From the NCBI GenBank assembly GCA_012026835.1, contig VEPN01000023.1:1-44284 (forward strand): DNA of 44,284 nucleotides, in the 5' to 3' direction. A model generated the notes under the pieces. It saw only the letters and a program-made list of their open reading frames with translations. It did not search any database and had not been told where the DNA came from. This document shows positions 11,694 to 28,397 of this stretch, one piece after another. The stretch's first letter is position 1, and each line of letters starts with the position of its first letter. The DNA is from Candidatus Methanoperedens sp. (GTDB taxonomy: Archaea > Halobacteriota > Methanosarcinia > Methanosarcinales > Methanoperedenaceae). The position numbers were made by a program, and so were the translations under genes.

Positions 11694-11844
11694 TCTAACC
11701 TGATTATTTATAGTATTATGCCATCCGCTTCCAGTGGGGAACAGTTTAGCCCTTCCATCTCTTTTGTGTATGTTTAGTTTACAAAATTGAAGTACCGACC
11801 ATTTGGCACTATTTCGAAGGCGGAGATGAATTGATACCTCCGAA

Positions 11845-12036
11845 CTAAAACTCACGTTTAAATAACAGATAAACCCAGGAAGTTATATTGCCATTACCTG
11901 AGCCGCCGCCACCTGATGTAAATTGTACGAAATCCCAGCCTTGCTCTGTCATGGCTTCAATCTCTTTTTCAATCGCATCAGGCTCAGGAGGAACTGTAGC
12001 TCCACTTGTTAAACATACAACTTTGTATTTCTTCAT
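11845..12036 (-). CDS. DUF4177-like small protein
   Basis: A 63-residue protein. It begins KKYKVVCL, has a central EKEIEAMTEQGWDFVQF, a flexible GGGGSGNG stretch and a final strand SWVYLLFKREF. The strand-helix-strand layout with EQGW is typical of DUF4177 proteins, whose function is unknown. AGGAG lies about 12 bases before the ATG. It sits 47 bases downstream of the long aminomutase gene on the same strand and may be the last gene of that cluster. A truncated relative with close DNA identity occurs at 23110-23217. Confidence 0.65.
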   Translation of the reverse strand: MKKYKVVCLTSGATVPPEPDAIEKEIEAMTEQGWDFVQFTSGGGGSGNGNITSWVYLLFKREF

Positions 12037-12083
12037 AATCGCAGATTCTCCTGTGTTCTAATCAATGTGCCTATATTCATAAA

Positions 12084-13901
12084 TTAGAAATAGTACCAGA
12101 TTGATGCATAATCTTCAACGTTTTCATTATCACCCTTCAATCTTCTGAGATAATCGTATATCGCTACGTCTGTGTAATTATACGGCTCAACCAGTGCGTA
12201 TCTGGACTCCCATGGGTAGAAACGGTATACCCGCCGCCCGTCTTCCAGTATCATTATCACTTCATGGTCCTGCCGCGCTCGCAGATGCGTTTTCCCGAGC
12301 CTCGGGACGTTGAAAACCGGTTCATCCGTTCTCTCGATGCCTGGCAGGAGCCTCGCCTCCTCTTTTCTCTTCTGCTCGATTCTTGCAATAGGCACACGAT
12401 AATCAATAGTTTCATCTTTTCCCTTTGTGTTGAAAGTGTAATAAGGATCAATGCCGGATTTTTTTAGAACTTTTCTCAACAGGCAGGATTCATATTTTTT
12501 GCTGTTATAATACGTAAAAACCTGCTGGTTATATAGATTAATCCCGGCCTTCTTTATTCTTTTTATCGCTTCCAGTGAATCTGGCGTGAGTTCTGTCGGG
12601 TGCTCAAAATGCGTGACGATACATAATTCCCTTACTCCAAGTTCATGATATTTGCTAAATATTTCCACAAGCTCGCCAGTAATTCGCTGCGGCATTGTCA
12701 CAATGATCCTGGTACCGATCCTGATTCTTTCAACATGTTCTATATCTGATATTCGGGACAGTAACCAGTCAATATTTGTATTGTCAAGGGTCAGGGGGTC
12801 CCCACCGGTTATCAGTACCTCTGTGATATGAGGATTATCACGTATCCATTTTATGGCATTGCCCATGGTTTCTTCTGAAAATACGGCGTATTTGATATCT
12901 GTGATTTCCCAGTTTCTCTGGCAGTAGACGCATATCTGCGGGCAGGAATCAAAGGGTTTAAGTATCAATATCTGCGGATACCGTCTGGTTATTCCTTTTA
13001 TCGGGCTTGTGGATTTTTCATCCATGAAATCAAGTGTGGATCCGAATTCCAGACCCCGGACATAATTAAGGCAATAGTTAACACTGGGCAGCACCTGCGC
13101 TCTTATCGCACGGTCGTATATCCCTTTGTTATTACTGTCAAAAAGCGAAAGGTAGTAGGGAGTTATCTGGAACGGGATATTATGTTCTTTCGCGGTTTCA
13201 AGTCCTCTTAATTCTTCATCGCTGAGTTTGACTATCTTTTTTAAAGAGTCTATATCTGATATTATATTTTCAATATGCCATCTGTAATCATCCCAGTCTG
13301 ATTCGCTTGCATGTAAAATTTCCTGAATGAACTCCTTATTCCTGCTTCTTTCCCGGATAAGATCATCATCTAATCCCGTTTTATACTGTCTGAAATAAAG
13401 TTCCATGCCGGATGCATAATTGTCAAGTGTTTTTGTGCGTTCCACTGCAGCTTCATGTCCGCTTAATCTTAGAAATAATGGCGCTTCCTTTTCTTTATAC
13501 AATCTCGAATCGCAGTTGATACCCTTGAAGAGAAATATCATTTCCAAGAAAAATCCTTCGTTCAATGTGTAAGATTTGGCTTTTTTCTTTGCGGCCCTGT
13601 ATAAGGAATTCAGGGCTGAATAATTAGTGATCTCCTCATTTTCCGTTCTTATGATATTCTTAAAAACCCTTATGCACTCCTTTGCATTATTCCTTTCAAG
13701 GATATTTGCATCTTTAAAGTGCTTATCTGAATAAATGTTAAAAAGATGTCTTTCCATATTGTTCAAGTAATCGAAAAGATTGTTCCTTGCCTCATGCAGG
13801 TCGTTGCTTGATTTAAGAAGACCGTGAATCTCCGGGTCGCATTCCCATAAAGTTTCCATCAGTTTCGTTTTATCATATTCCAGTAATTCTATCAACATCA
13901 A
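12084..13901 (-). CDS. KamA-family radical SAM aminomutase, glutamate 2,3-aminomutase-like, with long N-terminal extension
   Basis: A 605-residue protein. Residues about 200-545 align with lysine 2,3-aminomutase (LAM): [19 protein letters not shown], the radical-SAM cluster CPQICVYC (Cys320, 324, 327), ITGGDPL, RIGTR and the PLP lysine in LGKT (Lys537). At the two LAM positions that bind the substrate epsilon-amino group (Asp293 and Asp330 in the clostridial enzyme) I align Lys493 and Asn531. As I recall it, the same swap marks glutamate 2,3-aminomutase, so the product may be beta-glutamate. The first 200 residues are helical and absent from ordinary LAM. The C-terminal zinc cysteines of LAM are also absent. 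The ATG directly follows the GNAT stop. The aminomutase family is clear; substrate specificity is inferred. Confidence 0.8.
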   Translation of the reverse strand: MMLIELLEYDKTKLMETLWECDPEIHGLLKSSNDLHEARNNLFDYLNNMERHLFNIYSDKHFKDANILERNNAKECIRVFKNIIRTENEEITNYSALNSLYRAAKKKAKSYTLNEGFFLEMIFLFKGINCDSRLYKEKEAPLFLRLSGHEAAVERTKTLDNYASGMELYFRQYKTGLDDDLIRERSRNKEFIQEILHASESDWDDYRWHIENIISDIDSLKKIVKLSDEELRGLETAKEHNIPFQITPYYLSLFDSNNKGIYDRAIRAQVLPSVNYCLNYVRGLEFGSTLDFMDEKSTSPIKGITRRYPQILILKPFDSCPQICVYCQRNWEITDIKYAVFSEETMGNAIKWIRDNPHITEVLITGGDPLTLDNTNIDWLLSRISDIEHVERIRIGTRIIVTMPQRITGELVEIFSKYHELGVRELCIVTHFEHPTELTPDSLEAIKRIKKAGINLYNQQVFTYYNSKKYESCLLRKVLKKSGIDPYYTFNTKGKDETIDYRVPIARIEQKRKEEARLLPGIERTDEPVFNVPRLGKTHLRARQDHEVIMILEDGRRVYRFYPWESRYALVEPYNYTDVAIYDYLRRLKGDNENVEDYASIWYYF

Positions 13902-14393
13902 CTATCCCTGCCCGATTCGTTTTTCATATACCATAAAATGCCTTCCGGGTTTGTAGTAGTCCTGAACAGCCAGATTCCCCTCCACCTCTATTGTTTTCCC
14001 GATTTTTTCGCTGATATTTTTAAATCCCATTTTTTCAAAGAGCTTTTGAGAGGGAATGTTGACGGGATCGATAGTCGCTTCGATCCTGGTAAATCCCTTT
14101 TTCTCTAATTTTTCTTCAACCTCCCTGAGCAATTTTTTTCCTATTCCCTTTCCCTGATGAGGGGGATTTACGCCGATCTGCCATAAAAAACATGTACCAG
14201 GGAAACTCTGGGGAACAATTCCCATCACAAATCCCAAGATCTGCCCGTTTTCTTCGCCGATAAAACAATAATCCCCGAAGTAACGTAAGATAATTTTATA
14301 TACATGTTCAGGATAGTTCTCAGAAGGCAGACATACGGCAGTAAACTTGTGTATTTCTAAGAAGTCCTCCTGAGTGGCCGTTCTTATCTTCAT
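13902..14393 (-). CDS. GNAT acetyltransferase, EctA/AblB-like
   Basis: A 163-residue GNAT-fold protein. The acetyl-CoA loop is PHQGKGIGKKL (motif A, QGKGIG), preceded by FLWQIGVNP and followed by EATIDPVNIPSQKLFEKMGF. The FLWQIGV and PVNIPSQ stretches resemble diaminobutyrate acetyltransferase EctA more than a generic GNAT. Lying between two aminomutase genes, it most plausibly acetylates the terminal amine of beta-lysine to give Nepsilon-acetyl-beta-lysine, the role of AblB in methanogens. It is shorter than typical AblB as I know it (about 270 residues), so it may be a substitute or have another beta-amino acid substrate. Its start overlaps the ATP-grasp stop by 4 bases (ATGA), and it ends immediately before the downstream aminomutase. 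Confidence 0.78.
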   Translation of the reverse strand: MKIRTATQEDFLEIHKFTAVCLPSENYPEHVYKIILRYFGDYCFIGEENGQILGFVMGIVPQSFPGTCFLWQIGVNPPHQGKGIGKKLLREVEEKLEKKGFTRIEATIDPVNIPSQKLFEKMGFKNISEKIGKTIEVEGNLAVQDYYKPGRHFMVYEKRIGQG

Positions 14394-15748
14394 CCCGCCC
14401 CTCTCAATCTTTTAATATGTTCTACCTTTGAATCAATTAAATCCGTAGTTCCGATGTCTTTACGATAATAGAATTTCCCGCTCACCAGGGAAATAGCTTT
14501 CTCCACTTTTTCATTTGCTTCTTCGATGGTCTGTGCCCCGGCAATAAAAGCGATTCCTCTCTCTGTACCGACATTCAATTTACCCGTATTATCCGGGCCG
14601 CAGCTATAATAATACTTCAGACCATCTATTTTCTGGAGGGCTTCATGGTTTAGCTCCACTTCCAGGTTCAGATAGAGTTTTTCAGGATAACCTTGCGGCA
14701 CTATATATTTACAAACTGTTGCCTGGTTTTCAAAATAAAGTTCCTGTTCTTCTCCATGGAAAAGCTTGAGAATAATATCCAAAAGATTGTTTTTCAATAT
14801 GATAACGGTGTTCAGCCATTCAGGATCGCCAGGACGGAAGTTATATTCAATTAATTTGACTCCTTTAGATGTCAACATGAACTGACCGTATAAGAAACCC
14901 GAACAGATCTTCCCGGTTTCTTTCTGAAAACCATCAAGAGTCCCGCGGATGATCTCGCGTGCTTTTTCATAATCCTGCTCTTCCATAAAAGGAAGAAGAC
15001 ACCCCTGCTGGGAATAAGACCCCATACTTGCGGTGTTCGGTCCTTTTTCTCCGGGCAACAGCTTCTTGAAATCCTGGACAGCAGGGGTGAAAAGGATTTT
15101 CTCACCATGAACAAAGCATTGAACCGTGAACTCTTCTCCTTCCATTTTTTCTTCAATAATCACTCTGGGACTTCCCCCGATATTTCTTTCGATTATTTGT
15201 TGAATATACCCTTTGACTTCATTTTCATCTTTTAACTGCTCCCCAAAAACCCTGACACCGAGTCCATCAGTGAGCCCAATAGGTTTTACTGCAACCTGCC
15301 AGTCCATTTTTTCAGCGTAGTCAACCGCATTTTGAGATTTTTCAAAAATCTCAAAATGAGGAATGGCGGAGGGTATATATTTTTTAAGAAGTTTTCTGGT
15401 GAATTCTTTATTTGACTCCAGCTGGGCAGCGAGACGAACAGGTCCGAAAGCCAGGATATTATATGCTTCCAGCGCATCAACGAGACCTCTGGAAAGAGGA
15501 GAAGCGGTCGTGATAATGACAAGATCCACCTTTTTTTCCCTGGTATATTTCACAATAGTATCAATATCTTTTAGACTTCCAACATGGTAATCCCTTACCA
15601 GCGAAATAATACCGGGATTCGGAATATCCATATAAGAGAGAATCTCGATATCAGGATTACTGGAAATATTTTCAATAGTTATCTGTTCTTTTGCCCAGCT
15701 TCCAACGACAAGTATTCGTTCCACGAAAAATTTATCCGTTTTCATCAT
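14390..15748 (-). CDS. PurD-like ATP-grasp carboxylate-amine ligase
   Basis: A 452-residue ATP-grasp enzyme related to phosphoribosylamine-glycine ligase (PurD). It has an N-terminal Rossmann-like domain (RILVVGSWAKEQ), an ATP-grasp core with VAVKPIGLTDGLGV, EEKMEGEEFTVQ and PNTASMGSYSQ, and the metal-binding EYNFRPGDPEW. The glycine-rich GSGGREHA loop of true PurD is replaced by GSWAKEQI, and NTGGMGAY has become NTASMGSY, so the substrate has probably changed. Family chemistry joins a carboxylate to an amine through an acyl phosphate. The location between lysine 2,3-aminomutase and an acetyltransferase suggests an amide or dipeptide of a beta-amino acid rather than purine synthesis. The start ATG at 15748 is followed by a second Met codon. 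Confidence 0.8.
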   Translation of the reverse strand: MMKTDKFFVERILVVGSWAKEQITIENISSNPDIEILSYMDIPNPGIISLVRDYHVGSLKDIDTIVKYTREKKVDLVIITTASPLSRGLVDALEAYNILAFGPVRLAAQLESNKEFTRKLLKKYIPSAIPHFEIFEKSQNAVDYAEKMDWQVAVKPIGLTDGLGVRVFGEQLKDENEVKGYIQQIIERNIGGSPRVIIEEKMEGEEFTVQCFVHGEKILFTPAVQDFKKLLPGEKGPNTASMGSYSQQGCLLPFMEEQDYEKAREIIRGTLDGFQKETGKICSGFLYGQFMLTSKGVKLIEYNFRPGDPEWLNTVIILKNNLLDIILKLFHGEEQELYFENQATVCKYIVPQGYPEKLYLNLEVELNHEALQKIDGLKYYYSCGPDNTGKLNVGTERGIAFIAGAQTIEEANEKVEKAISLVSGKFYYRKDIGTTDLIDSKVEHIKRLRGAG

Positions 15749-15777
15749 TATTTTCTCAATTCTATTTTATAGAAATT

Positions 15778-17091
15778 CTATCTTTCGCATCTTCTTTCTA
15801 TCCTGTCAGTATGCTCAGGAATAAGTGAGATGGTGTCATCATAATCTGACAGCAATTTCTCAATGCCAATGGCATGTATTTCCTCTGCTTCATCGAGTTT
15901 CAGTTGTAGTTTGCAGTCCTGGCAATTCCTGTCACAAAAAACAGGTTCATAACTATCCGGTTCTTTATATGTGGTAATAACCCCTTCATAATTTCTCAAA
16001 ACCACTTTGTTCGTTGACCATGAGATCAAATACGTTGGCATGACAGGGATTTTCCCTCCTCCTCCCGGCGCGTCTATTACGTATGTAGGTACTGCGAAAC
16101 CGCTGGTATGCCCTATCAGGCTTTCCATGATTTCAATGCCCTTGCCAACAGGAGTACGAAAGTGGGATAATCCTTCCGAAAGGTCACACTGGTAGAGATA
16201 ATATGGCCTGACACGATTCTGGACGAGTTTGTGAACAAGTCTTTTCATGATTCGCGGGCAATCATTCACACCTGCCAGCAGAACGGTCTGGTTGCCAAGA
16301 GGGATTCCTGCATCAGCCAGTTTTCGCAGTGCCTCTTTTGAAGAGTCAGTTATTGCTCTTGGATGATTGAAATGTGTATTAATCCAGAGAGGATGGTGTT
16401 TTTTTAATACCGCCACCAATTCGTCAGTTATGCGGAACGGCAGCACAACCGGCATTCTTGTTCCTATGCGTATTACTTCTACGTGCGGAATCTTATGCAA
16501 TTCAGTGAGGATCCAGTCAAGATAATCATCTGATAGCATAAGAGGGTCGCCCCCCGACAATAAGACATCCCTTACTGCATGAGTATTTTTAATGTATTCA
16601 ATTCCTTTCACGATTTCATCCTTATCAGGGATCGAATCGACATCGCTTACTTTTCGTTTTCTTGTGCAATGCCTGCAGTAAATGGAGCAGATATTGCTTA
16701 TATGGAACAATACCCTGTCGGGGTATCTGTGTATGATCCCGGGAACAGGGCTGTCTCTGTCTTCTGCCAGAGGGTCTTTCATTTCATATTTATCGACGGT
16801 CAATTCCATCGGCGAAGGAAATGATTGTTTAAAAAAAGGGTCATTTCTATAGTCATCCGTATCTATCAAAGACAAATAATAAGGCGTTATTGAAAGAGGG
16901 AACTTTGCGATCGTTTTTTCAAGGAGTTTCCTTTCACTTTCTTCAAATTTAATACCGGTTAATTTCTCGAATGTTGGAATGTTCCTGATAGAATGTTTCA
17001 ATTGCCATTTCCAATCTTTCCAATTTGAAATCCTTGCTTTGGGATTTATTCTCTCAGCGATCTCCTGTTGTTTCTGGTTATAGATAGTCAT
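15778..17091 (-). CDS. ablA: L-lysine 2,3-aminomutase
   Basis: A 437-residue radical SAM, PLP-dependent enzyme converting L-lysine to beta-lysine. The sequence follows clostridial LAM closely: [36 protein letters not shown], the cluster CSIYCRHC (Cys135, 139, 142), [30 protein letters not shown] (Asp303) and [10 protein letters not shown] (Asp340, Lys347). Asp303 and Asp340 match the lysine-binding Asp293 and Asp330, so lysine is the expected substrate. A C-terminal CDRNCQDC cluster corresponds to the zinc site. In methanogens this enzyme starts synthesis of the osmolyte Nepsilon-acetyl-beta-lysine. Its ATG immediately follows the mscS stop codon, with AGAGGTGA inside the mscS end serving as ribosome binding site. 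Confidence 0.93.
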
Positions 17092-18183
17092 TCAATTCAC
17101 CTCTTTTTTTTCATTCAAATATATCGTCTGCGACGGGAATGCGATTTCAACATCCAGTTCTTCAAGCAGCTGCATGATCTTCAGATTGAATTCTTCCCTG
17201 ACACGGAGTGATTCAGCCCAATCCGTTGTCTTTGTGAAACAATAGATAAATATGTTCAAAGAATATGCTCCGAAATCATTGAACCTGACCATGTAAAACG
17301 AATGATCGAATTTCTCATCATCTTCGATTATCTTTTTTATGCCGGCCACTGCTTCTTTCATTTTGTTTACGGGTGTCCCGTATGTTACTCCGAGGTAGAA
17401 ATTTATCCTGCGTTTTTTCATTGCAGTGTAATTTATAATGCCTGTGTTAATGAACTGGCTGTTCGGCACCGTAACAAGGGCCTGATCGAACCTGCGGACG
17501 CGGGTAGTCCTGAACCCAACATCCTCTACCGTTCCCTCGATATCTCCAACCTGTATCCAGTCGCCGAGCTGGAAAGGCTTGTCTGAGAAGATGGTGATGG
17601 AGCCAAAAAGATTGCTCACCGTGTTCTGCGCCGCAAGGGCGAAAGCAAGGCCGCCGAGACCGAGACCCGCAAGCAGGGATGTTATGTTATAGCCAAAATT
17701 ATCAAGGATAAATAATATCCCTAAAGTAACAACAAGAACACGAAGGCTTTTTACAAGCAATGGAACAAGCTGGTCATCAAGCGTGCTATTTGTTTTTTTT
17801 GCTTCCCTGTAAAGGTAAACAGCTATGATATCTATAAGCTTGAAGACAAAATAAAGCATTATAAGAGAGAACGCAAGGATGTAGATGGTATGTACTATCT
17901 CGGAAATCTCAAAATTGTTGATCTTTTCAGGTAATTGCAGGGATAGTATGGCCAGATAGAAACCCTGCAGCAATATGAGATAATTGAGAGGACTTCTTAT
18001 TGCTTTCAAAAGCAGGTCGTCAAGTTCTGTTTCTGTATTTTTTACGATAATGGCCATTTTTTTATCTATTAAATGGATGAAAATGGATTTTAGTATAAAT
18101 GTGACAAATATTATACTAAAAAACAATCCGATTTTTCCAATAGATATGCCAAATAAATTTTGATTTAATATTTCTGAAATCAT
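17092..18183 (-). CDS. MscS-family mechanosensitive ion channel
   Basis: A 363-residue protein with about four to five N-terminal membrane helices. The pore helix region is SLLAGLGLGGLAFALAAQNTVSNLFGSITIF, reaching from about residue 167, followed by the beta domain FQLGDWIQVGDIEGTVEDVGFRTTRVR, both diagnostic of MscS. It opens when membrane tension rises and releases small solutes during hypo-osmotic shock. It is the first gene of the run leading into lysine 2,3-aminomutase, with no base between its stop and the next ATG. The coupling of a solute-release channel to solute-synthesis genes supports an osmotic role for the cluster. Confidence 0.92.
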   Translation of the reverse strand: MISEILNQNLFGISIGKIGLFFSIIFVTFILKSIFIHLIDKKMAIIVKNTETELDDLLLKAIRSPLNYLILLQGFYLAILSLQLPEKINNFEISEIVHTIYILAFSLIMLYFVFKLIDIIAVYLYREAKKTNSTLDDQLVPLLVKSLRVLVVTLGILFILDNFGYNITSLLAGLGLGGLAFALAAQNTVSNLFGSITIFSDKPFQLGDWIQVGDIEGTVEDVGFRTTRVRRFDQALVTVPNSQFINTGIINYTAMKKRRINFYLGVTYGTPVNKMKEAVAGIKKIIEDDEKFDHSFYMVRFNDFGAYSLNIFIYCFTKTTDWAESLRVREEFNLKIMQLLEELDVEIAFPSQTIYLNEKKEVN

Positions 18184-18347
18184 TATCGTGTGCCTATTTA
18201 TTTTTTAATCTTTTGCCTTTATTCGTTCCGCGATAAGTGTATAATTCTATTCGATCATTGCCCTGCTATATCGCAGACAAATCTTCGAAAAAACATGATG
18301 GAATTAACGAATTTAACTTTCCATCAACAATAAAAATAATGAATATT

Positions 18348-18357
18348 AAAAAAAAAA
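18348..18357 (-). terminator. T-run terminator after the 67-residue ORF
   Basis: A run of ten A on the plus strand is a T10 tract on the minus strand, about 18 bases after the stop at 18376. Oligo-T tracts terminate transcription in archaea. The bases between here and 18183 hold only AT-rich sequence, where the promoter of the mscS cluster should lie. Confidence 0.45.
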
Positions 18358-18375
18358 TCTGACGGTAGTATTGGA

Positions 18376-18579
18376 TTATTTGAGAAAAAGTTCATCATTT
18401 CGAAGCACTCCTTTTTTTCTTATCTTTAGTGTATCAACTTCCGTAATAGTTTCAAACCATATGCTCAGGAAAAACGATAGATAGTAGATTATTCTTTTTG
18501 CATGCTTTCCAAATTTCGTTCTTTCGGTTTGCCATGAGACAGGTACTGTCACCATTCCCACGGGTTGATCAAATTCCAT
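18376..18579 (-). CDS. Small hypothetical protein (67 aa)
   Basis: A 67-residue ORF of unknown family: a short N-terminal part (EFDQPVGMVTVPVSW), a hydrophobic aromatic stretch IIYYLSFFLSIWF that could be one membrane segment, and a charged C-terminus. A strong Shine-Dalgarno GGAGG lies 9 bases before the ATG, and a T10 tract follows the stop; both support a real gene. I recognise no homologue and assign no function. Confidence 0.4.
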   Translation of the reverse strand: MEFDQPVGMVTVPVSWQTERTKFGKHAKRIIYYLSFFLSIWFETITEVDTLKIRKKGVLRNDELFLK

Positions 18580-18709
18580 GTATTGTTGCCTCCATATTTG
18601 AATTAAAATAACTTAATATCCCGGATTTAAATCTGCGTATTTAACTCATGATTATTATGTATTATATATCTTTCGGATTTTTCAATTCAATCAAAATCAT
18701 CTACTCTTT

Positions 18710-19573
18710 TTACTTGGCTCTCACTACCAGAACAGGTCTGTTTGCTCTTCTCACCACTGCACAGGTAGTGCTTCCCACCAGTAATTCCTTTAACCAGCCT
18801 TTCCCGTGCGGGCTCATCGCAATTAATGAGACATCCTCGTCCTCAGCAGTTGAGATTATTTCCTCAGGCATGTTTCCCACACGAACATGGTCTTTCACAT
18901 TAAAACCTGCTCGTCCAAGCTCCTCTTTGATATCGCCAAGCTTGCTTTTCGCCTCATTGACATTTTCCTCTATTTCTTCTTCTGTTTCCCCTTTACTGAC
19001 CACATTCAGAAGAACCATTTCTTTAATATCTTTTATTTCTTTCATAAACGATATTGTCTTCTCTGCAGGTTCGGAAAAATCAGTCGGCAAAAGGACTTTT
19101 GAGAAAATCATCGGGCAGAATTTTTCATGTTTCAATCCTTCCAGGTCTTCCACTATTTTATATCGCATGATAAGTAGATTTGTCTTTGCATGATGCACTA
19201 CTTTTGAAGAAACACTTCCAAGAAAGAGATCCTTTATTTTGCTTTTACCTCGGGCACCCATAACAATCAAGGAGGCTTTTTCTTTTTCCGCAGTTTCCAG
19301 AATCTCTCTATAAACTTCGCCTTCTGTTATCACCTGCACTTTTGTTTTCACATTCAAACCCGGTTTCTCAAGATATCCTTTCTTCTCCTCCATGAGAATC
19401 TTAGCATTCTCGATATGCGGCCCGTGAGTCCAGCCATGCTTTGGAGAAGGATGCGTTGCATCAACTACATGTAATAGAAAGATTTCTTTTACCCCCGGAA
19501 TCTCACCAATGCATTCAAGGGTCTTCTGCGCATACTCTGAAAAATCTGTTGGAAATAAAACTTTTTCGAACAT
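18710..19573 (-). CDS. Tandem-domain universal stress protein (UspA family)
   Basis: A 287-residue protein made of two UspA domains. Each starts with the same strand: KVLFPTDFSEYAQKTLECI at residue 4 and KVLLPTDFSEPAEKTISFM near residue 157. The first ends with VMGARGKSKIKDLFLGSVSS, close to the G-2x-G-9x-G-S nucleotide-binding motif. The second ends with MSPHGKGWLKELLVGSTT. Such proteins bind ATP or AMP and are induced by stress. Partners are not shown by the neighbours; upstream on the same strand lie the small membrane protein and zinc-ribbon genes. TTTAAATAAAGATA at 19665-19678 could serve as its TATA box. Confidence 0.88.
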   Translation of the reverse strand: MFEKVLFPTDFSEYAQKTLECIGEIPGVKEIFLLHVVDATHPSPKHGWTHGPHIENAKILMEEKKGYLEKPGLNVKTKVQVITEGEVYREILETAEKEKASLIVMGARGKSKIKDLFLGSVSSKVVHHAKTNLLIMRYKIVEDLEGLKHEKFCPMIFSKVLLPTDFSEPAEKTISFMKEIKDIKEMVLLNVVSKGETEEEIEENVNEAKSKLGDIKEELGRAGFNVKDHVRVGNMPEEIISTAEDEDVSLIAMSPHGKGWLKELLVGSTTCAVVRRANRPVLVVRAK

Positions 19574-19730: not shown

Positions 19731-19880
19731 CTAACCTTTAGAAGAAATAAAAATATTATATAACAGCCATGCTATCATCAATATAATTAGGAATATGCCT
19801 ATACCTACGAACAGTATTCCTGTTCCCAGGTTCTTAATTCTCTCCTGAATTCTTTCCTTTTTGATTAACTCTATTTTCAT
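19731..19880 (-). CDS. Small single-span membrane protein (49 aa)
   Basis: A 49-residue ORF. A charged, helical N-terminus (MKIELIKKERIQERIKNLG) leads into one strongly hydrophobic helix (GILFVGIGIFLIILMIAWLL, about residues 21-40) and a short tail. Its ATG overlaps the stop of the zinc-ribbon gene as ATGA, so translation is probably coupled. The pair may be a soluble zinc protein plus membrane anchor, which is an inference. The second zinc-ribbon copy near 22.9 kb lacks this partner. Confidence 0.6.
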   Translation of the reverse strand: MKIELIKKERIQERIKNLGTGILFVGIGIFLIILMIAWLLYNIFISSKG

Positions 19881-20020
19881 ATATTGTTTACCTTCTGTTC
19901 CCTATCTGGTTCCGGAAACCTGCAGCCACATATCTTGCAGGTATGGGAGAAACCATTCTCCGTATGAAAGCACATACCTCCTGCCATACTGACAGTATGT
20001 CCACAGTGTTTACATATCAT
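19877..20020 (-). CDS. Small double-CxxC zinc-ribbon protein, copy 1 (47 aa)
   Basis: A 47-residue ORF beginning MICKHCGHT, with the second knuckle HTCKICGC. The two Cys-x2-Cys pairs (Cys3/6 and Cys28/31) plus nearby His and Cys residues make a rubredoxin- or zinc-ribbon-like metal site. A paralogue at 22886-23038 keeps both knuckles and the AGG-x4-HT-x-NGFSHTCKICGC core, so the family is under selection. It lies 25 bases after the DUF1646 gene, possibly in the mtrD transcript, and overlaps the membrane protein gene by four bases. No function is known to me. Confidence 0.65.
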   Translation of the reverse strand: MICKHCGHTVSMAGGMCFHTENGFSHTCKICGCRFPEPDREQKVNNI

Positions 20021-20045: not shown

Positions 20046-21185
20046 CTACAATATATAGCTCGGCGCGTAGAGTATTATGAAATATACCAGCATCGCTGCC
20101 AGACCCAATGGAACTCCAAGCCTTGCCCATTCTTTACTTGTGATTCCAAGTTTGTTGGCTGCGATAATATTGGGTATATTACCGGGTATGAGCATCCCGC
20201 CCGATACTAACAACCCCATCAGGACACTTTTGATTTTAATCGCCGGGTCAGGCAGACCAGGTACTATCATGGAGGGATCAACCTCAGCAGCAGCAAGGGT
20301 TGCATTATCCAGAATTGCGGATACCATATTCACCCAGTAAAGAGCTTCGCCTGCCATTTTGGTTACATACCACTCAATAATAGGGGTAAAACCTGTTCCA
20401 AGAAGTACAAGCGCCATTACGAACACATACACCTTTGCTGCTCTTATCAGCACGTCGTTTATTCTCTCATGAACCTTATCCGTCGCTGTGATATCATCCT
20501 TCGGCACTTCCTTTTCTTTTCTGGAGGCAAAGAATACGCCAATTATTCCGAATGCCAGAACACCAGGTATAATATATACTCCGAGTAAATCAAAAAGATA
20601 AAAGAAGCTCTCTTTCATCTTGGTTTTTATCACAATTGTGGAAAGCGGTTCACCGATCGGTGTAAGTGCAGCCCCGAGTCCGATGGCAAAACATGCAATT
20701 ATTGTTAAATTTACCATTGTCTTACGATTTAGTTGCAATGCACTGACTATCTCAACAAGGAGGAGCGCAGCAATGATGGCAGTGATCACGCTTGAAAGCA
20801 AACCGAGCACCACGATGACTGCAAAGACCACAATCTTAAGTGGTATTCTTATCAGTATTTTCTGCATTATAGTTCGGATATGCCCGCGTCCATAGTGGAA
20901 AATTAGTCCTGCAAATAGCACAGCAAGCGAGATTTCAATAGGGTCAACCAGTGCTTTTTCAACCAGATGGAAGTTCCAGTTGGGCAATGTCTCCTCAGCA
21001 CCCAATTCAGAACCGGGTGATATTTTCAGAAATAAAGAGTTCACTGTTACTGCCAATATACCCATCGAGAAAAGGAAAACCTCCAGATTATGTTCAATTT
21101 TTTTGATCAGAAAAGGGCCAAGGAGGACTATGAGGAAAATTAATAATAATCCTCCTGCGACCGTTAAACTGAACTCAAGACTCAT
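20046..21185 (-). CDS. DUF1646 family putative cation transporter
   Basis: A 379-residue integral membrane protein with about ten spans. I assign it to DUF1646, a family found in methanogens and some bacteria and related to ion transporters of the ArsB/NhaD type. Visible landmarks are GLGAALTPIGEPLSTIVI in the first half and LDNATLAAAEVDP and LIPGNIPNIIAA in the second, the paired discontinuous-helix regions typical of that fold. The NhaD-like landmarks make Na+/H+ exchange plausible but unproven. The start lies one base after the mtrD stop, so the two are almost certainly cotranscribed. That links it to a subunit of a Na+-translocating methyltransferase. Confidence 0.8.
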   Translation of the reverse strand: MSLEFSLTVAGGLLLIFLIVLLGPFLIKKIEHNLEVFLFSMGILAVTVNSLFLKISPGSELGAEETLPNWNFHLVEKALVDPIEISLAVLFAGLIFHYGRGHIRTIMQKILIRIPLKIVVFAVIVVLGLLSSVITAIIAALLLVEIVSALQLNRKTMVNLTIIACFAIGLGAALTPIGEPLSTIVIKTKMKESFFYLFDLLGVYIIPGVLAFGIIGVFFASRKEKEVPKDDITATDKVHERINDVLIRAAKVYVFVMALVLLGTGFTPIIEWYVTKMAGEALYWVNMVSAILDNATLAAAEVDPSMIVPGLPDPAIKIKSVLMGLLVSGGMLIPGNIPNIIAANKLGITSKEWARLGVPLGLAAMLVYFIILYAPSYIL

Positions 21186-21186
21186 G

Positions 21187-21918
21187 TTACATTCCCATTG
21201 AAATCAACATTGCCACAACACCAAGAACAAGGCTAATGCAAAAGCTTGTGATAGTATCTTTTGGAAGAACGCGCCTGAATTTCGGGTCGTGGAATCCTTC
21301 GATCGTACCGCCCACGCCATAAGATGGAACAACAGCATTGACATAAAAAACCCCCAAGGTAAATACTCCTGCAACCGCAGAAGCACTTAACGGGTTTATC
21401 AGGCTGCCGTATACACCTATCAGGACATAATAAATGAGCGATCCACCTATCCCGCCAAGTGCTGCTCCAATTACTCCGCTTACAAAACATACAGTCGGAA
21501 GTCCCTGTCCCTGCGTTCCTTTTGACATATAAAGATCCTGGCGCGCTCCTGTTATTGGGTCACGTTTGACCTGGGCTGAAGCGAAAGGTACTCCTACGCC
21601 ATAAGCGTAAATCAAACTGGCAGCGAACATTGCACTTGATATCATTATCATGGAACCCACTGCTCCCGCAGCCAATACTAAAGCCATCGGAGCATTTTCG
21701 ACATTTGCATACATATATGCAGCCGTTAACAGGCCTACAAGCCCGGAACCTGCCGCCAGTTCTACAGTCCCAGTACCTATACCCGTAGCCTGCGCCATCG
21801 CCGCAGGAGCGCCACCCACAGGCACGAAGTGCACACCTACACAAATAAGTGTGCCGCTAATCGCTATTAAAAGAATATTTGTCAGTGTTGCCGGGTCGAG
21901 TAATGAAATATCCACCAT
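21187..21918 (-). CDS. mtrD: Tetrahydromethanopterin S-methyltransferase subunit D, solitary copy
   Basis: A 243-residue membrane protein that reads as full-length MtrD: VGVHFVPVGGAPAAMAQATG, GTGTVELAAGSGLVGL, AGAVGSMIMIS, IYAYGVGVPFASAQVKRDP, GQGLPTVCFVSGVIGAALGG and GGTIEGFHDPKFRR. MtrD is one of the integral membrane subunits of Mtr, which transfers a methyl group between tetrahydromethanopterin and coenzyme M with Na+ movement. The other subunits (E, C, B, A, F, G, H) are not next to it, unlike the usual mtrEDCBAFGH operon. GGAGTGA lies 6 bases before the ATG. DUF1646 follows after one base. A minus-strand TATA-like element lies near 22110-22118, giving a leader of about 170 bases. Confidence 0.92.
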   Translation of the reverse strand: MVDISLLDPATLTNILLIAISGTLICVGVHFVPVGGAPAAMAQATGIGTGTVELAAGSGLVGLLTAAYMYANVENAPMALVLAAGAVGSMIMISSAMFAASLIYAYGVGVPFASAQVKRDPITGARQDLYMSKGTQGQGLPTVCFVSGVIGAALGGIGGSLIYYVLIGVYGSLINPLSASAVAGVFTLGVFYVNAVVPSYGVGGTIEGFHDPKFRRVLPKDTITSFCISLVLGVVAMLISMGM

Positions 21919-22126
21919 TTTTAATCACTCCTTTTTCCTTATCCTCAATGTGTCTTTGCGATTTTTGTTTTTGTTCCGGATAGAATAAATATCATTTCTT
22001 ACAGCGATTTCAGATTGCATATGTCGTTTCCTCCTTGATTTAAACAGAAATCACCATGAAAAATCATAGTGAGTGATGCGCCTGTTCTTTTGACTATCAG
22101 TACCAAATGTTATAAATCTTTCTAAT

Positions 22127-22840: not shown

Positions 22841-22888
22841 ATCTTTATTTAAACTCCGGCCAGGCACCATATAGGAGTAATTCTTTCA
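22841..22888 (-). repeat. 48-bp two-copy repeat, copy 2
   Basis: Second copy of the element at 19661-19708, with two mismatches. Its edge supplies the stop codon of the zinc-ribbon gene at 22886. The join with that gene lies at TGAAA, a short sequence that also occurs at both ends of the segment missing relative to copy 1. Confidence 0.7.
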
Positions 22889-23038
22889 TATACCTTCTGC
22901 GTGATGCTCATCTGTCTCCGGAAACCAGCAGCCGCATATCTTGCAGGTATGTGAGAAACCGTTACCCGTATGAAACCACAAACCTCCTGCCTTCATGATA
23001 GTATGTCCACAGTGTTTACATATCCTATCTGTCGCCAT
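22886..23038 (-). CDS. Small double-CxxC zinc-ribbon protein, copy 2 (50 aa)
   Basis: A 50-residue ORF: MATDRICKHCGHT, AGGLWFHTGNGFSHTCKICGC and a His-rich tail DEHHAEGI. Cys7/10 and Cys32/35 form the two knuckles. It is a paralogue of the ORF at 19877-20020, about 70% identical across the core. Here the small membrane protein gene that overlaps copy 1 is missing, and the reading frame ends inside the 48-base repeat. It is convergent with the membrane-anchored regulator gene. Function is unknown; small metal-binding or redox protein by motif. Confidence 0.6.
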   Translation of the reverse strand: MATDRICKHCGHTIMKAGGLWFHTGNGFSHTCKICGCWFPETDEHHAEGI

Positions 23039-23109
23039 GACCAATACCTGCAAGCATCATATTTGATTTAATAGCTATGTCAACATAATTGTTTAAGGGA
23101 ATATTAGTA

Positions 23110-23225: not shown

Positions 23226-23966
23226 TTAGATAACCAATCCCCCGTCCACGCTGAGTACCGTGCCTGTAACGAACCCTGCATCATCTGAAGCAAGATAGAG
23301 GTATGCATTAGCGACATCCCTGGGCTCACCCAGCCTGCGAAGAGGTGTTTTCTCTTTCATCATCTCAAGTATCTTATCAGGAACACCTGCCGTCATCGGG
23401 GTCGCTATGAATCCCGGCGCTACAGCATTTACCCTGACCCCTTTCTTCCCAAGTTCTTTTGCCAGGCTTTTTGTCATGCCAATTAACCCGGCCTTGGCTG
23501 AAGCGTAATTGGTCTGGCCTACGTTACCGAATAATCCGACAATAGAGGATGCATTGATAATTACCCCGCTGCCCTGGTTGACCATGGTTCCAACCACGGC
23601 CTGGATACAATTAAAAACCCCCTTGAGATTGATGTTAATAACACGATCCCATTGATCTTCTGTCATTTTTAATATGAGAGCATCCTGTACAATGCCGGCA
23701 TTGTTTATCAGCACGTCTATTCTGCCATATTTCTCAAGGACATCCCCTGCCATCTTTATTGATTGTTCCCTGATAGAGGCGTCCAGTTTGATAAAAAACC
23801 CGTGGCCTCCTCTTTTTTCGATCTCCTCAACTGTTCCCTGGCCACTTTTCTCATTTATATCTGCTACAACGACCTTTGCTCCCTCAAGGGCGAACAGCAG
23901 GGCAGTTTCGCGGCCAATGCCGCTTCCTGCGCCAGTTATAATTACAACCCTGTTTTCAAATTTCAT
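23226..23966 (-). CDS. phaB: Acetoacetyl-CoA reductase-like SDR (PhaB/FabG family), copy 1
   Basis: A 246-residue short-chain dehydrogenase with the NAD(P)-binding TGAGSGIG (12-19), NNAG, the catalytic Ser (INASSIVG) and YASAK pair, and C-terminal VLSVDGG. The best role is NADPH- or NADH-dependent reduction of acetoacetyl-CoA to 3-hydroxybutyryl-CoA for PHA synthesis, because thiolase and synthase genes lie upstream on the same strand. FabG-type acyl carrier protein reduction is unlikely in an archaeon without fatty acid synthesis. A TATA-like element at 23981-23994 lies 15-28 bases before the ATG, suggesting its own leaderless transcript in addition to read-through. No Shine-Dalgarno is seen. 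Confidence 0.85.
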   Translation of the reverse strand: MKFENRVVIITGAGSGIGRETALLFALEGAKVVVADINEKSGQGTVEEIEKRGGHGFFIKLDASIREQSIKMAGDVLEKYGRIDVLINNAGIVQDALILKMTEDQWDRVININLKGVFNCIQAVVGTMVNQGSGVIINASSIVGLFGNVGQTNYASAKAGLIGMTKSLAKELGKKGVRVNAVAPGFIATPMTAGVPDKILEMMKEKTPLRRLGEPRDVANAYLYLASDDAGFVTGTVLSVDGGLVI

Positions 23967-23980
23967 AGCATATACTCTAC

Positions 23981-23994
23981 CATATATAATAAAA
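23981..23994 (-). promoter_or_regulatory. TATA box for the distal PHA reductase
   Basis: On the minus strand TTTTATTATATATG lies just upstream of the reductase ATG at 23966. With the usual 22-27 bases from TATA box to start site, transcription would begin at or next to the ATG, giving a leaderless mRNA. The spacing is the only support. Confidence 0.4.
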
Positions 23995-24017
23995 CGATCA
24001 ACTATTTCTACCGATGA

Positions 24018-24173
24018 TTACCCCGCAACGACTGCTTCCATCTTATCGCCGGATACCCTTTCAACTGCTGGCAGCTCCCCTACCAGCATTTCCTCCAGTA
24101 GTCCTTCCACGCTTAGCAGATATCGTGCCCTTTCCAGATCTATCTCTCCAAGAGTATCTTCATAACTTGCCAT
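24018..24173 (-). CDS. Small acidic protein within the PHA locus (51 aa)
   Basis: A 51-residue protein, MASYEDTLGEIDLERARYLL followed by a helical acidic stretch and ending GDKMEAVVAG. I choose the ATG at 24173 because a strong GGAGGTGA lies 5 bases upstream; an earlier in-frame ATG at 24200 overlaps the previous gene's stop but has no such site. It lies 23 bases after one PHA reductase gene and 51 bases before the next, on the same strand. I do not recognise a family. A granule-associated or regulatory role is possible from context only. Confidence 0.55.
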   Translation of the reverse strand: MASYEDTLGEIDLERARYLLSVEGLLEEMLVGELPAVERVSGDKMEAVVAG

Positions 24174-24196
24174 CTCTTTCACCTCCGTTAAATTTA

Positions 24197-25057
24197 TCAT
24201 ATGTATAATCCTCCGTTCAGGTCCAATACCTGGCCTGTTATATAATCACCGTCTTTTGAGACGAGGTAAGATACGGCCCCTGCGACCTCATGCGGCTTTC
24301 CCAATCTTCCAAGGGGGATTTTACCCAGGATTTTTTTCATTGATTCATCCGGTACCGAACTTAACATATCGGTTTCTATAAATCCCGGAGCCACAGCATT
24401 TACAGTTATGCCTTTGCCCGCGAATTCCTTTGCCAGGGCCTTTGTCATCCCTATTATGCCTGCCTTGGAGGCTGCATAGTTGACCTGCCCGAAATTACCC
24501 ATCCTCCCTATGACCGAGGATATGTTAACGATTCTCCCGTACTTCCTTTCAAGCATTCCTTCTATAACGGCTTTAGTTGTGTAAAAACTACCGTCAAGAT
24601 TCACAGATAATACTTCCTTCCACATCTGCGGGGTCATCTTGGCGAAAGATTTATCCCTGACTATTCCTGCATTGTTAATCAGGATATCTATTTTGCCAAA
24701 CTGCCTTATGATTTCATCCCGCATCCTGTTTACCTGCTCCATGTCGCTGATATCAGCCTGGCAGATGCAGGAATGCCTGCCTATCGATTCAATCATTTCT
24801 ACAACTTCCTTTGCATGTTCTCCTGTATCCAGGTTGTCAACCATCAGGGACAATTTCTCAATATCCTCTATCGTCCCGATCTGGCTTATCAGCCTCGAAA
24901 CAGATTCTGCCCGTTCCCTGGTATTCTGATAATTTATGGCGATATCTGCGCCTTCTTCTGCCAGCCTCAACGCTATCGCCATCCCGATTCCCCGCGATCC
25001 CCCGGTGACCAGGGCTACTTTTCCTTTCAATCGTGCTCCATTTCCATTTTTGTTCAT
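24197..25057 (-). CDS. phaB: Acetoacetyl-CoA reductase-like SDR (PhaB/FabG family), copy 2, with insertion
   Basis: A 286-residue SDR with TGGSRGIG, NNAG, the catalytic Ser (NISSVIG) and YAASK motif, and a C-terminal LDLNGG. It differs from copy 1 by about 30 extra residues between strand 2 and strand 3 (ISQIGTIEDIEKLSLMVDNL and on), before the usual QADISD. I start at the ATG at 25057 because AGGTGA lies 5 bases upstream inside the thiolase stop; a longer frame from 25108 would overlap the thiolase end. Expected to reduce acetoacetyl-CoA; the two reductases may differ in cofactor (NADH or NADPH) or in chain length. Confidence 0.82.
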   Translation of the reverse strand: MNKNGNGARLKGKVALVTGGSRGIGMAIALRLAEEGADIAINYQNTRERAESVSRLISQIGTIEDIEKLSLMVDNLDTGEHAKEVVEMIESIGRHSCICQADISDMEQVNRMRDEIIRQFGKIDILINNAGIVRDKSFAKMTPQMWKEVLSVNLDGSFYTTKAVIEGMLERKYGRIVNISSVIGRMGNFGQVNYAASKAGIIGMTKALAKEFAGKGITVNAVAPGFIETDMLSSVPDESMKKILGKIPLGRLGKPHEVAGAVSYLVSKDGDYITGQVLDLNGGLYI

Positions 25058-25062
25058 ATATT

Positions 25063-26241
25063 TCACCTGCCGATAACCATTGCAATACCCTGGCCTCCGC
25101 CGATGCACATGGTCGCAAGGCCGTACCTGCCATTCCTTCTTATTAATTCATAGAGAAGAGTTACCAGAATCCTCGTTCCGCTGGCACCTATCGGATGCCC
25201 CAGGGCTATGGCTCCCCCATTAACATTAAGCTTATCAGTATCCAGTTTAAGTTCCCTATTGACTGCAAGAGTCTGTGCAGCGAAGGCTTCGTTCTCTTCT
25301 ATCAGATCTATATTGTCCAGTTTGATACCCGCACGTTCCAGAGCTTTCATGGTAGCACAGACAGGACCGATGCCCATTACTTCAGGGGGTACTGCGCATG
25401 ATGCATAGCTCACTATAGTTGCCAGGGGTGTAATCCCTTTCTCCTTTGCCTTTTCCTCAGACATTAGAAGAACAGCGGCAGACCCGTCATTGATCCCTGA
25501 AGCGTTGCCAGCAGTAACCGTGCCGTCTTTTTTAAAAGCCGGTTTAAGCCTGGATAAGGTGTTCATATTCGTGCCGAAACGCGGGAACTCATCAGTATCA
25601 AAAAGCACTGGTTCACCTTTTTGCTGGGGTATCGATACAGGGACTATTTCTTCCTTAAACTTACCTGCCTTTATAGCGGCTTCTGCCCTGTTCTGGCTAA
25701 TTATTGCGAATTCATCCTGCTCTTGTCGTGAAATATTATATTTTTCTGCCAGTTTCTCTGCCGTTACCCCCATATGGTAATCATTAAAGATATCCCACAG
25801 TCCGTCGTATATCATCGTATCTACGATTTTCTCGTCCCCCATCTTCATTCCCCACCTGGCTTTCTTGAGGGCATATATGGAGTTTGACATAGACTCGGTC
25901 CCGCCAGCAAGCACAACATCCTCATCGCCAAGCATTATTGCCTGCGCACCAAGGGCGACGGATTTTAAGCCCGAACCGCAAACCTTATTCACACTAAAAG
26001 CCGGCACTTTTTCAGGGATCCCTGCCCATATTGAGCATTGCCTTGCTACGTTCATACCCTGCCCGCCAGAAAGGACATTTCCCATAATGACTTCGTCCAC
26101 TTCGCCCGGATCAGTACCTGCACGTTTCAGTGTCTCTTTCAATACTACAGATCCGAGTTTTCCCGGCAGGATATCTTTAAGATTTCCCCCGAATTTTCCA
26201 ATTGCCGTTCTTGCTGCCGATACTATAACTGCTTTTTTCAT
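25063..26241 (-). CDS. phaA: Acetyl-CoA acetyltransferase (beta-ketothiolase)
   Basis: A 392-residue thiolase with all active-site elements: nucleophile Cys88 in [10 protein letters not shown], His349 in [14 protein letters not shown], and the second Cys379 in [18 protein letters not shown] is also present. Length and motifs match degradative/biosynthetic acetoacetyl-CoA thiolases, which condense two acetyl-CoA molecules. It provides the first step of PHA synthesis here, upstream of the two reductases and downstream of phaC. GAGG lies about 9 bases before the ATG. The broken SDR at 26281-26607 separates it from phaC, so it may now depend on its own promoter or on read-through. Confidence 0.92.
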
Positions 26242-26280
26242 TTAAAACCTCATTCAATTTCAACTATACTATTATCAGCT

Positions 26281-26607
26281 CTATATTGTTAACCCGCCAT
26301 CAACGCACAGCACCGCCCCGTTAACATACCTTGCTTCGTCTGAAGCCAGATAAAGATACGCATATGCGATATCCCTCGGTGCATGGGATTTTTTGTTTCA
26401 TCGTTTTAGGAATGTTTTCAGGCATTATCGACCAGAAATCGGTAATGCATAAATAACTCCGCCATTCTTCTGTTTGATCATTATTCAATAACTGACCGGA
26501 TACCTCCTGTTTATGCGGGTTCCTTCCTCGGCAAACAACGTTGCTGTCTCCCTGCCAATACCGCTTCCAGCCCCTGTAATGATGGCAACCTTGTTTTCAA
26601 GTCTCAA
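26281..26607 (-). pseudogene. Internally deleted SDR (third PhaB-like gene)
   Basis: Two ends of a short-chain dehydrogenase survive. The 5' part, from a TTG at 26607 that overlaps the end of phaC, reads [20 protein letters not shown] and continues [11 protein letters not shown] before a frame change and stop. The 3' part reads [19 protein letters not shown] and [13 protein letters not shown], preceded in another frame by [14 protein letters not shown], matching the loop before that region in copy 1. About 130 codons of the middle, with the catalytic Ser and Tyr, are gone. It is closer to the reductase at 23226-23966 than to the one at 24197. It accounts for the 355-base gap between the thiolase and phaC. 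Confidence 0.85.
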
Positions 26608-27850
26608 CCATCTTCCCCCTTGTTTTACGACTCTTTCTCTTTTCCGGATAGGATCTTGACCTTTTCGGATATGATTTTGGTTCTTCTGGATGAGCCTCTT
26701 GCTCTTCTATAGCAGGCCTTGGTTCTTCTGTGTAAGCTTTTGGCGACTCTTCTGGAACAGGTTTTGGCTCTTCTGGATAGGATCTCGGCTTAAGCCACTG
26801 TGCGATACTGGGGACTACCACATTCTGGGACTTTGAACCCACGAAAATACCTATATGCCCTGTAGGAAAAACCATTGTTTCCTTATCCTCACTTGATACT
26901 GCATCATTCAGGGGCAGACTTGCATCATTGGGAACCAGATGATCAGTCTCTGCCATGACATTGAGGAGAGGCATGGTTATATTTTTTAGATTGATCTCTT
27001 TTCCGTCGAGTTTTAGCTTGTTCTTGATCAGGAGGTTCTTCTGGTAGCAGTCCTTAATGAACTGCCTGAAAGCTTCACCTGCCTGGTCGGGGCTGTCAAA
27101 TATCCATTTCTCCATTCTAAGGAACGTCTTGACTGTTTCCTCATTCCTGAGCCTGCATTCCTTATCATCGGGTTCGCACTCGATTCGCGAAAACAAGCCC
27201 ACATACTTATCGATCATGAGCCTGAACGGGTCAGTAAGCAGGAACCCGGCATTCAGAAAATCTCCAGGAACTATCCCATAGTTATCGACTACCTTATCCA
27301 CATCCAGATTCTTTGCCCACACATGCAGGAGGCCCTTATCAGTATCGAAGTTTATAGGGGTCACCAGGGTGATCAGGTTTTTAACTTTCTCCGGGTACAA
27401 AGACGCATACATGGTTGAAAGAGTTCCCCCCTGGCAAACGCCAAAGAGCGTGATCTTATCCATTCCTGATAGTTCCCGAATCTTGTTAACAGCGTTGTTT
27501 ATGTAACCGTTCACATAATCATCGAGTGTGAGGTATCTGTCGGCGCCCGAAGGATACCCCCAATCGATTATATATATGTCAAAACCCTCATCCAGCAGTT
27601 TCTTTACCACGCTTTTATCGGGCTGGAGATCCAGGATATAGTAGCGGTTCACAAATGCGTATAAAATGAGGACAGGAACGGGGTTCGGTTTTTCTACGAC
27701 AGGAATATAATGAATCAGTTTCATATCATCTTCTGTATAGACTACTTCGGAAGGTGTAGTGCCCACCGAAATGTCACCTGGTTCCAGCAGTATCCCGATC
27801 GCTTTTATGAATTTCCTGTAGTTTTCTATCGCATCAATCGCTTTCATCAT
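26597..27850 (-). CDS. phaC: Class III poly(3-hydroxyalkanoate) synthase subunit PhaC
   Basis: A 417-residue alpha/beta-hydrolase-fold polymerase. The lipase-like box is FGVCQGG with nucleophile Cys139; Asp303 in ETDHLVP and His332 in GHIGIFVG complete the triad, at nearly the same positions as in the Allochromatium class III enzyme. It polymerises 3-hydroxyacyl-CoA together with PhaE on granules. After about residue 355 there is an unusual Pro/Glu/Lys-rich tail of some 60 residues with repeated EEPKP, EEPRP and EEPKS-like units ending in basic residues, absent from typical bacterial PhaC. Its start overlaps the PhaE stop (ATGA). Confidence 0.94.
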
Positions 27851-28395
27851 CTCCCTCCGGATAGTTCTTTCATCCGGGACTTCAGTTCCCGGACTGTTTT
27901 CTTAAGAAGATACACCTCTTTGTTTATCTCATCGATTTCCGTTCTTGTAGGAAGACCAGATGGTTTAAGGTAATTCTCTTCAAGCACTTCCCTGTTATTT
28001 TTCTGGAAATCCATCAGCTGTGACATGAACGTCCCCATGTCTGAGGCAAAGTGGCCTGATTTCAGGAATTCTTTGAAAGTCTCACTGTAGGTTTCAATCC
28101 AGACCTCATAGAAATCCTCATACGACCTGGCAGATGGTTCCCCTTCGATCCTGGAGGCCATATTCTCGCGCATCCTGCGCATAGCCTCTATGAACACGTT
28201 CTGGAAATTGATCAGGGATTCCATCCACTTTGCATAAAGACTGACTGAAGTGGAGAAACCTCTTATCACTTTCTCTGTTTTTTCACGTGACGGGCCCATG
28301 GGGGGGATTTCTATTACCCTGCCATAGGTAGCTTCATAGGTCTTCAGCCACAGGTCGAAGAACTCATGCGTGGATTCGAAACTGGCCTTATCCAT
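27847..28395 (-). CDS. phaE: PHA synthase subunit PhaE
   Basis: A 182-residue helical protein immediately upstream of phaC, overlapping it by four bases. It contains two copies of an aromatic motif, HEFFDLWLKTYEATYGRV (about 10-27) and YEDFYEVWIETYSETFKEF (92-110), and ends with LPTRTEIDEINKEVYLLKK, the conserved C-terminal region of PhaE that precedes a coiled coil. Size matches haloarchaeal PhaE. PhaE is needed with PhaC for class III synthase activity. It begins 2 bases after the stop of a larger protein with the same motif. Confidence 0.85.
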   Translation of the reverse strand: MDKASFESTHEFFDLWLKTYEATYGRVIEIPPMGPSREKTEKVIRGFSTSVSLYAKWMESLINFQNVFIEAMRRMRENMASRIEGEPSARSYEDFYEVWIETYSETFKEFLKSGHFASDMGTFMSQLMDFQKNNREVLEENYLKPSGLPTRTEIDEINKEVYLLKKTVRELKSRMKELSGGR

Positions 28396-28397
28396 AC

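Follow-up and report, generated by a model that had tools for sequence, protein, structure and literature searches.

In methanogenesis, as in methane oxidation by archaea, the step coupled to Na+ is carried out by Mtr. To our knowledge, the recently found protein MtrI is the only described means of adjusting the coupling of this enzyme. The subunits MtrC, MtrD, and MtrE assemble into a globe whose central cavity lies below the MtrA corrinoid, and the Na+ site of the complex lies in MtrE (PMC10998594, PMC12774963); in methane oxidisers, Mtr is reversed and consumes the Na+ gradient (PMC9012536). Duplicated or accessory Mtr genes have been described in several archaea. In Methanococcales and Methanomicrobiales, a single subunit gene has been duplicated and retained for a long time as mtrA-1 and mtrA-2, with both copies lying inside the mtr operon and homogenised by gene conversion (PMC4632066). 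Additional Mtr genes in ANME-2 genomes, known as Mtr2, make up a whole divergent operon of about 40% identity (PMC9012536). The gene for MtrI of Methanosarcinales lies outside the mtr operon, and its product, an oxygen-responsive protein of 68 residues that binds MtrCDE in M. mazei and blocks its cavity on oxygen exposure, has been proposed to act on Mtr during stress as a protector or regulator (PMC12774963). Separately, DUF1646 proteins are predicted Na+/H+ antiporters, whose genes are under Na+-related regulation in bacteria, where a Na+ riboswitch class bears their name (PMC9337991).

The locus described here differs from each of these systems. It lies in a contig of Ca. Methanoperedens, of which a stretch of 44,284 nucleotides (the window) was analysed, and it contains a solitary paralogue of Mtr subunit D, mtrD2 (Table 1). 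Like canonical MtrD (mtrEDCBAFGH; PDB 8Q3V, 9QTQ), MtrD2 is a full-length family member that keeps the corrinoid-contact loops, and the MtrD2 clade shares a mean identity of 58% with M. mazei MtrD; unlike it, mtrD2 stands alone outside the mtr operon, at a separate locus where it has a regulator, a promoter, and a leader ORF to itself, within a Na+/osmotic operon, and in addition to an intact mtrD that the mtr operon retains. As with mtrA-1/mtrA-2, a single subunit gene is duplicated, but mtrD2 occupies a separate locus, has kept its distinct sequence, and is associated with cation transport. Whereas Mtr2 is an entire operon, MtrD2 represents a single subunit, closely paralogous to that of the main Mtr, and branches within the Methanoperedens MtrD proteins. 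In contrast to the small MtrI, it is a paralogue of a full pore-lining subunit. Finally, where a Na+ riboswitch class is associated with DUF1646 in bacteria, here a divergent regulator and a leader ORF are found, with no Rfam riboswitch match. We found no report of a DUF1646–mtrD pairing in the open-access literature searched.

Table 1. Features of the mtrD2 locus and its surroundings in the window
Feature	Position	Strand	Basis
mtrD2, solitary paralogue of Mtr subunit D	21187–21918	−	PF04207, TIGR01112, tree, constraint
DUF1646 transporter	20046–21185	−	PF07854 402 bits (cut-off 21.4); AlphaFold2 model; Foldseek
Leader ORF, 31 codons in the window, own Shine-Dalgarno and ATG	21925–22020	−	Open-frame conservation
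BRE/TATA-like promoter element AGAAAGATTTATAACATTT upstream of mtrD2	22105–22123	−	Near-invariant in 15 species
Divergent regulator, winged-helix DNA-binding domain and N-terminal hydrophobic segment	22205–22834	+	Weak HTH_20/MarR/ArsR-type matches
Small CxxC..CxxC Zn-ribbon-like protein	19877–20020	−	Adjoins DUF1646 or mtrD2 in most carriers
Small membrane protein	19731–19880	−	4-nt overlap with the Zn-ribbon gene; fused to Zn-ribbon in G012
Tandem-domain universal stress protein (Usp)	18710–19573	−	PF00582 164 bits
MscS-type channel, directly upstream of ablA	17092–18183	−	Profile matches; homologous ynaI-kamA-ablB operon in PMC11337218
AblA/KamA lysine 2,3-aminomutase (N-epsilon-acetyl-beta-lysine osmolyte synthesis)	15778–17091	−	TIGR03820 790.6 bits (cut-off 525)
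GNAT acetyltransferase, EctA-like	13902–14393	−	TIGR02406 71 bits, below cut-off; Pfam GNAT
SLC13-type Na+ symporter	10254–11648	−	PF00939 246 bits; homologue of the post-Usp gene in BLZ2, FeB_1, and G021
Na+/Ca2+ exchanger	904–1863	−	PF01699 198 bits; in the conserved cluster of BLZ2, FeB_1, and G021

The initial annotation, made from the sequence alone, had described a complete MtrD lying by itself one base upstream of a transporter gene, in an operon with small metal and membrane proteins, and this description holds throughout. The mtrD2 frame is intact, and its product passes the curated MtrD cut-offs over the full profile, with 278 bits in PF04207 (cut-off 25) and 284.6 bits in the mtrD equivalog TIGR01112 (cut-off 126.85). 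No other mtr gene adjoins it in the window; the DUF1646 gene, likewise intact and on the minus strand, is separated from it by a single base, and both small genes are real. Among named records, the MtrD is closest to those of the Ca. Methanoperedens isolates Mnv1, nzgw24, FeB_1, and BLZ2. A search of plasmids and viral contigs for mtrD2 gave no match.

The genome to which the window belongs (3.32 Mb, 99.8% complete) also carries a complete mtr operon on contig C53, including an mtrD of its own that is 79% identical to mtrD2; mtrD2 is thus not the sole mtrD of the genome in a new place. MtrE and MtrC are each encoded once, and no second copy of either was found in this genome. For MtrA there is a second, more distant match apart from the mtr operon, where the domain (C63:21143–21700) forms part of a larger protein with a 462-residue open frame.

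MtrD2 orthologues occur in 15 of the 31 genomes of the genus, that of the window included, while about half of the genus lacks the gene. Fourteen are full length, those of the other genomes being 80–89% identical to the window's; the remaining one (G023) is cut off by a contig end after its first 81 residues. A further genome (G026), in which a contig end breaks the cassette inside DUF1646, is not among the 15. A full-length DUF1646 gene follows mtrD2 in 10 species and a gene split over two contigs in an eleventh (G006), with 1–2 bases between the two genes in the window and in G016, G017, and G019 and 34–139 bases in others; in three species, DUF1646 beside mtrD2 is absent or a remnant. The adjacency is therefore a conserved trait of the genus, and its recurrence in 11 species rules out an assembly artefact or a peculiarity of one genome. 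Of the 14 genomes that have a full-length mtrD2, 12 also have an intact operon mtrD. In the assemblies of two carriers, G027 and G030, mtrE and mtrC were sought and not found; in G030, whose completeness score is 100%, the likely cause is a contig missing from the bin.

In a maximum-likelihood tree, a single clade (support 95/89) unites all 14 MtrD2 sequences. It lies near the operon MtrD of Methanoperedens and at a wide distance from the divergent Mtr2 copies, ruling out an origin of mtrD2 from Mtr2. Trees of the cassette broadly agree with that of the mtr operon, but they are poorly resolved with regard to whole-cassette transfer between species. Outside Methanoperedens, no second MtrD was found among 295 genomes of the phylum and 60 relatives except in Mtr2-like operons, and the six re-examined genomes among those with apparent doubles proved to have split hits, sub-threshold matches, or Mtr2. 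Second divergent mtr operons of about 40% identity were seen at L037 (G014, M. nitroreducens ANME-2d), L038 (G006), L044 (G031), and L051 (G059), and these probably correspond to the published Mtr2 (PMC9012536).

Sequence comparison indicates that MtrD2 is under strong purifying selection. Its median dN/dS of about 0.07 is close to the values for operon MtrD (0.075) and DUF1646 (0.078), all of them rough since synonymous sites are near saturation, and it rules out a pseudogene; comparison by genome pairs shows higher conservation for MtrD2 than for operon MtrD in 56 of 66. The corrinoid-facing loops of M. marburgensis MtrD comprise residues D28–30 and D192–194 (PMC10998594), and the corresponding GAP and GGT contact motifs are kept in all 14 MtrD2 proteins save for one G to C change in one species. 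At several of the positions that set the clade apart, G28, I93, G109, I150, and F209 of the window protein among them, MtrD2 has the residue of M. mazei and M. marburgensis, whereas most operon copies differ. Over 104 columns conserved in 23 other MtrD proteins, deviating cells amount to 13.9% in MtrD2 versus 15.3% in operon MtrD and fall largely on the same columns, and the site variability of the two is correlated (Spearman 0.62). These patterns are most simply explained if MtrD2 is subject to the structural constraints that also act on normal MtrD. Residue differences specific to the MtrD2 clade are conservative, so that an altered coupling is not visible in the sequence.

The unit has a conserved order: divergent regulator, promoter, leader ORF, mtrD2, DUF1646, Zn-ribbon gene, small membrane protein gene, and usp. 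Orthologues of the regulator adjoin mtrD2 in nearly all carriers at 50–65% identity; in the window, its real start is probably at 22298, and the protein may be anchored in the membrane. The leader ORF stops just before mtrD2 in the window, and its frame is open to the mtrD2 start in all 15 species, compared with 2 and 1 of 15 for the other frames, over a distance from ATG to mtrD2 that ranges from 29 to 202 nt among species. This pattern suggests that translation of the leader ORF and mtrD2 is probably coupled. Together, the conserved promoter, the coupled leader ORF, and the divergent regulator indicate that mtrD2 is regulated separately. Control of mtrD2–DUF1646 by a Na+ riboswitch was considered and rejected, as no relevant Rfam match lies upstream (window 17–26 kb).

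The Zn-ribbon-like protein has no match in Pfam, and the small proteins were named, and the regulator's topology predicted, from sequence only. The two CxxC pairs of the Zn-ribbon-like protein span about 29 residues, not the 15 of the compact N-terminal four-cysteine ribbon of MtrI, and a PDB sequence search with its paralogous copy returned no MtrI chain; the protein was rejected as an MtrI. The paralogous copy (ORF 22886–23053) stems from a duplication of the Zn-ribbon gene and its downstream stretch across the regulator gene, seen as direct repeats at 19654–19708/22834–22888 (55 nt, 93%) and 19904–20018/22910–23024 (115 nt, 88%).

An AlphaFold2 model of the DUF1646 protein (57 homologues, pLDDT 82) has the fold of the ion-transporter superfamily, and its best Foldseek matches are VcINDY, ArsB, and NaDC (E from 6e-4, probability 1.00, TM about 0.5); the DUF1646 profile found nothing among PDB sequences. 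Since the protein scores 18.2 bits in the NhaD profile TIGR00775 (cut-off 577) and no riboswitch is present here, its assignment as a probable Na+/H+ exchanger is drawn from the family prediction (PMC9337991) together with the fold, and Na+ export would be the presumed ion and direction of transport. The association of mtr genes with cation exchange recurs in other arrangements. In METP1 (G003) and RifSed (G030, RifSed_csp2_16ft_3_45_12), where mtrD2 has no DUF1646 gene beside it, a nearby CBS-domain gene on the same strand is followed by a PF00999 Na+/H+ exchanger gene in the opposite orientation. Other DUF1646 subfamilies, about 52–64% identical, adjoin the mtr operon in G013, G018, G019, G020, and G022, the last with the order DUF1646–usp–mtrE, and DUF1646–Usp pairs also occur outside Methanoperedens, where one genome has three of them in tandem. 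The link between Mtr and cation exchange is thus independent of any single adjacency. At the mtr loci examined in other Methanosarcinales, the 6 kb around mtrD contained no DUF1646 gene. The three tandem DUF1646–Usp cassettes (L199 in G269, of the same class) are near-identical, with a period of about 2.27 kb, and suggest selection for gene dosage. Two to four tandem DUF1646 genes were further observed at L198 (G201), L201 (G178), L197, L205, and L206, in genomes of the same order.

The Usp gene has the same position in BLZ2, Mnv1, FeB_1, and others. In BLZ2, FeB_1, and G021, it is followed by genes for an SLC13-type symporter, a Na+/Ca2+ exchanger, and another membrane protein; their homologues in the window lie on the same strand, more distant from the mtrD2 unit. 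On that strand, the mtrD2 unit is followed in the window by mscS–ablA, a PurD-like ATP-grasp gene, and the EctA-like acetyltransferase gene. The homologous kamA-ablB operon of another Ca. Methanoperedens, with an MscS-like gene 1 bp ahead, is salt-induced, in a metatranscriptome study whose main text makes no mention of mtr genes (PMC11337218). The strain studied there, Vercelli 1, probably represents the same organism as isolate Mnv1, in which mtrD2 lies on NZ_FZMP01000181.1. In the window, the EctA-like protein may take the role of AblB; because the acetyltransferase there is EctA-like, with no clear AblB, the osmolyte of the cluster may differ. The ablA cluster also contains a second KamA-like radical SAM protein and the PurD-like ATP-grasp protein (12084–13901 and 14390–15748). 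Genes for ion transport and osmotic balance are abundant in the window; over 231–19573 and 31165–33363, it encodes the Na+/Ca2+ exchanger, a P-type ATPase, SNF and SLC13 symporters, MscS, AblA, and a trehalose-6-phosphate synthase/phosphatase fusion.

We consider it an even chance that MtrD2 is a conditional alternative MtrD that enters Mtr under Na+ or osmotic stress and is paired with a Na+-rebalancing exchanger. In such a scheme, the divergent regulator would, probably upon Na+ or osmotic stress, bring about a transcript that spans the leader ORF, mtrD2, DUF1646, and the small proteins up to Usp. MtrD2 would substitute for operon MtrD in part of the MtrCDE globes and alter the wall of the pore or cavity below the MtrA corrinoid, leaving the Na+ site untouched; the altered wall could change the Na+ affinity, leak, gating, or coupling of Mtr. 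Running in reverse, Mtr would let Na+ in, and the co-made DUF1646 protein, or in some species an unrelated Na+/H+ exchanger, would export it and so restore the gradient. The more specific proposal, that a salinity-driven swap of the D subunit changes the Na+ stoichiometry or leak of Mtr and goes together with a dedicated exchanger for Na+ encoded in the same operon, is put forward only tentatively; control of Mtr coupling by subunit exchange was not described in the open-access literature searched. Of the two readings in the initial annotation, one was that this MtrD, as a spare or a regulator, alters the Na+ coupling of Mtr. The conserved core, the contact residues, and the Na+/osmotic operon make it the better fit of the two as far as the alternative subunit is concerned, and the change in coupling is what we infer beyond that.

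The main rival to a stress-made alternative MtrD is a simple spare copy, that is, an equivalent subunit supplied as an extra or replacement in general stress or repair, with coupling unchanged and the site in a Na+ operon a matter of regulation only. Contact residues and core that match those of operon MtrD, and a Usp that belongs to the operon, agree with this explanation; yet the duplication of D alone, and not of E and C, would be odd for the repair of a 1:1:1 globe, and the tree shows MtrD2 and operon MtrD staying distinct throughout the genus, with no homogenisation. On balance, we regard a spare copy as somewhat unlikely. Usp and the Zn-ribbon protein could also mark a general or oxidative stress operon, in which MtrD2 would serve Mtr assembly or redox protection with a purpose like that of MtrI and Na+ would be incidental. 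The precedent of an oxygen-responsive protein that binds MtrCDE counts in its favour, but neither the cysteine spacing of the small protein nor the PDB search points to MtrI, and the wider neighbourhood is of Na+/osmotic rather than redox character, which leaves this possibility improbable.

The other reading of the initial annotation, an MtrD-based Na+ module of its own, would have MtrD2 act apart from Mtr, in partnership with DUF1646 or another exchanger in the membrane. It accords with the pairing of mtrD2 with such genes and with the presence of mtrD2 in G030, where mtrE and mtrC were undetected. We disfavour this module as unlikely: MtrE is where the known Na+ site is located, and MtrD only lines the cavity (PMC10998594, PMC12774963); moreover, MtrD2 retains the residues that face the corrinoid of MtrA, its site variability matches that of operon MtrD, and three carriers have no DUF1646 beside mtrD2. 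That MtrD2 lacks a special role, as a neutral duplicate carried along by chance in a transporter operon, would suit its patchy occurrence in the genus, but it is already contradicted by the purifying selection and sits badly with an old clade whose operon and promoter are conserved in 15 species; we give it very little credence.

Because a second MtrD sits with a sodium-type transporter and, in the window genome, near salt-protection genes, the locus suggests that Methanoperedens may swap a part of its central enzyme as sodium or salt conditions change. MtrD2 also hints at a way in which methane-oxidising archaea of fresh water may deal with salinisation. Conserved and under regulation of its own, this paralogue of a pore-lining subunit forms with operon MtrD a natural isoform pair for asking what part MtrD plays in coupling.

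On the far side of the regulator, the window contains a PHA cluster (23226–29477) with two SDR reductases, a thiolase, PhaC, and PhaE-like or phasin-like proteins, and a similar second PHA cluster on contig C89 adjoins another DUF1646 gene (L079).
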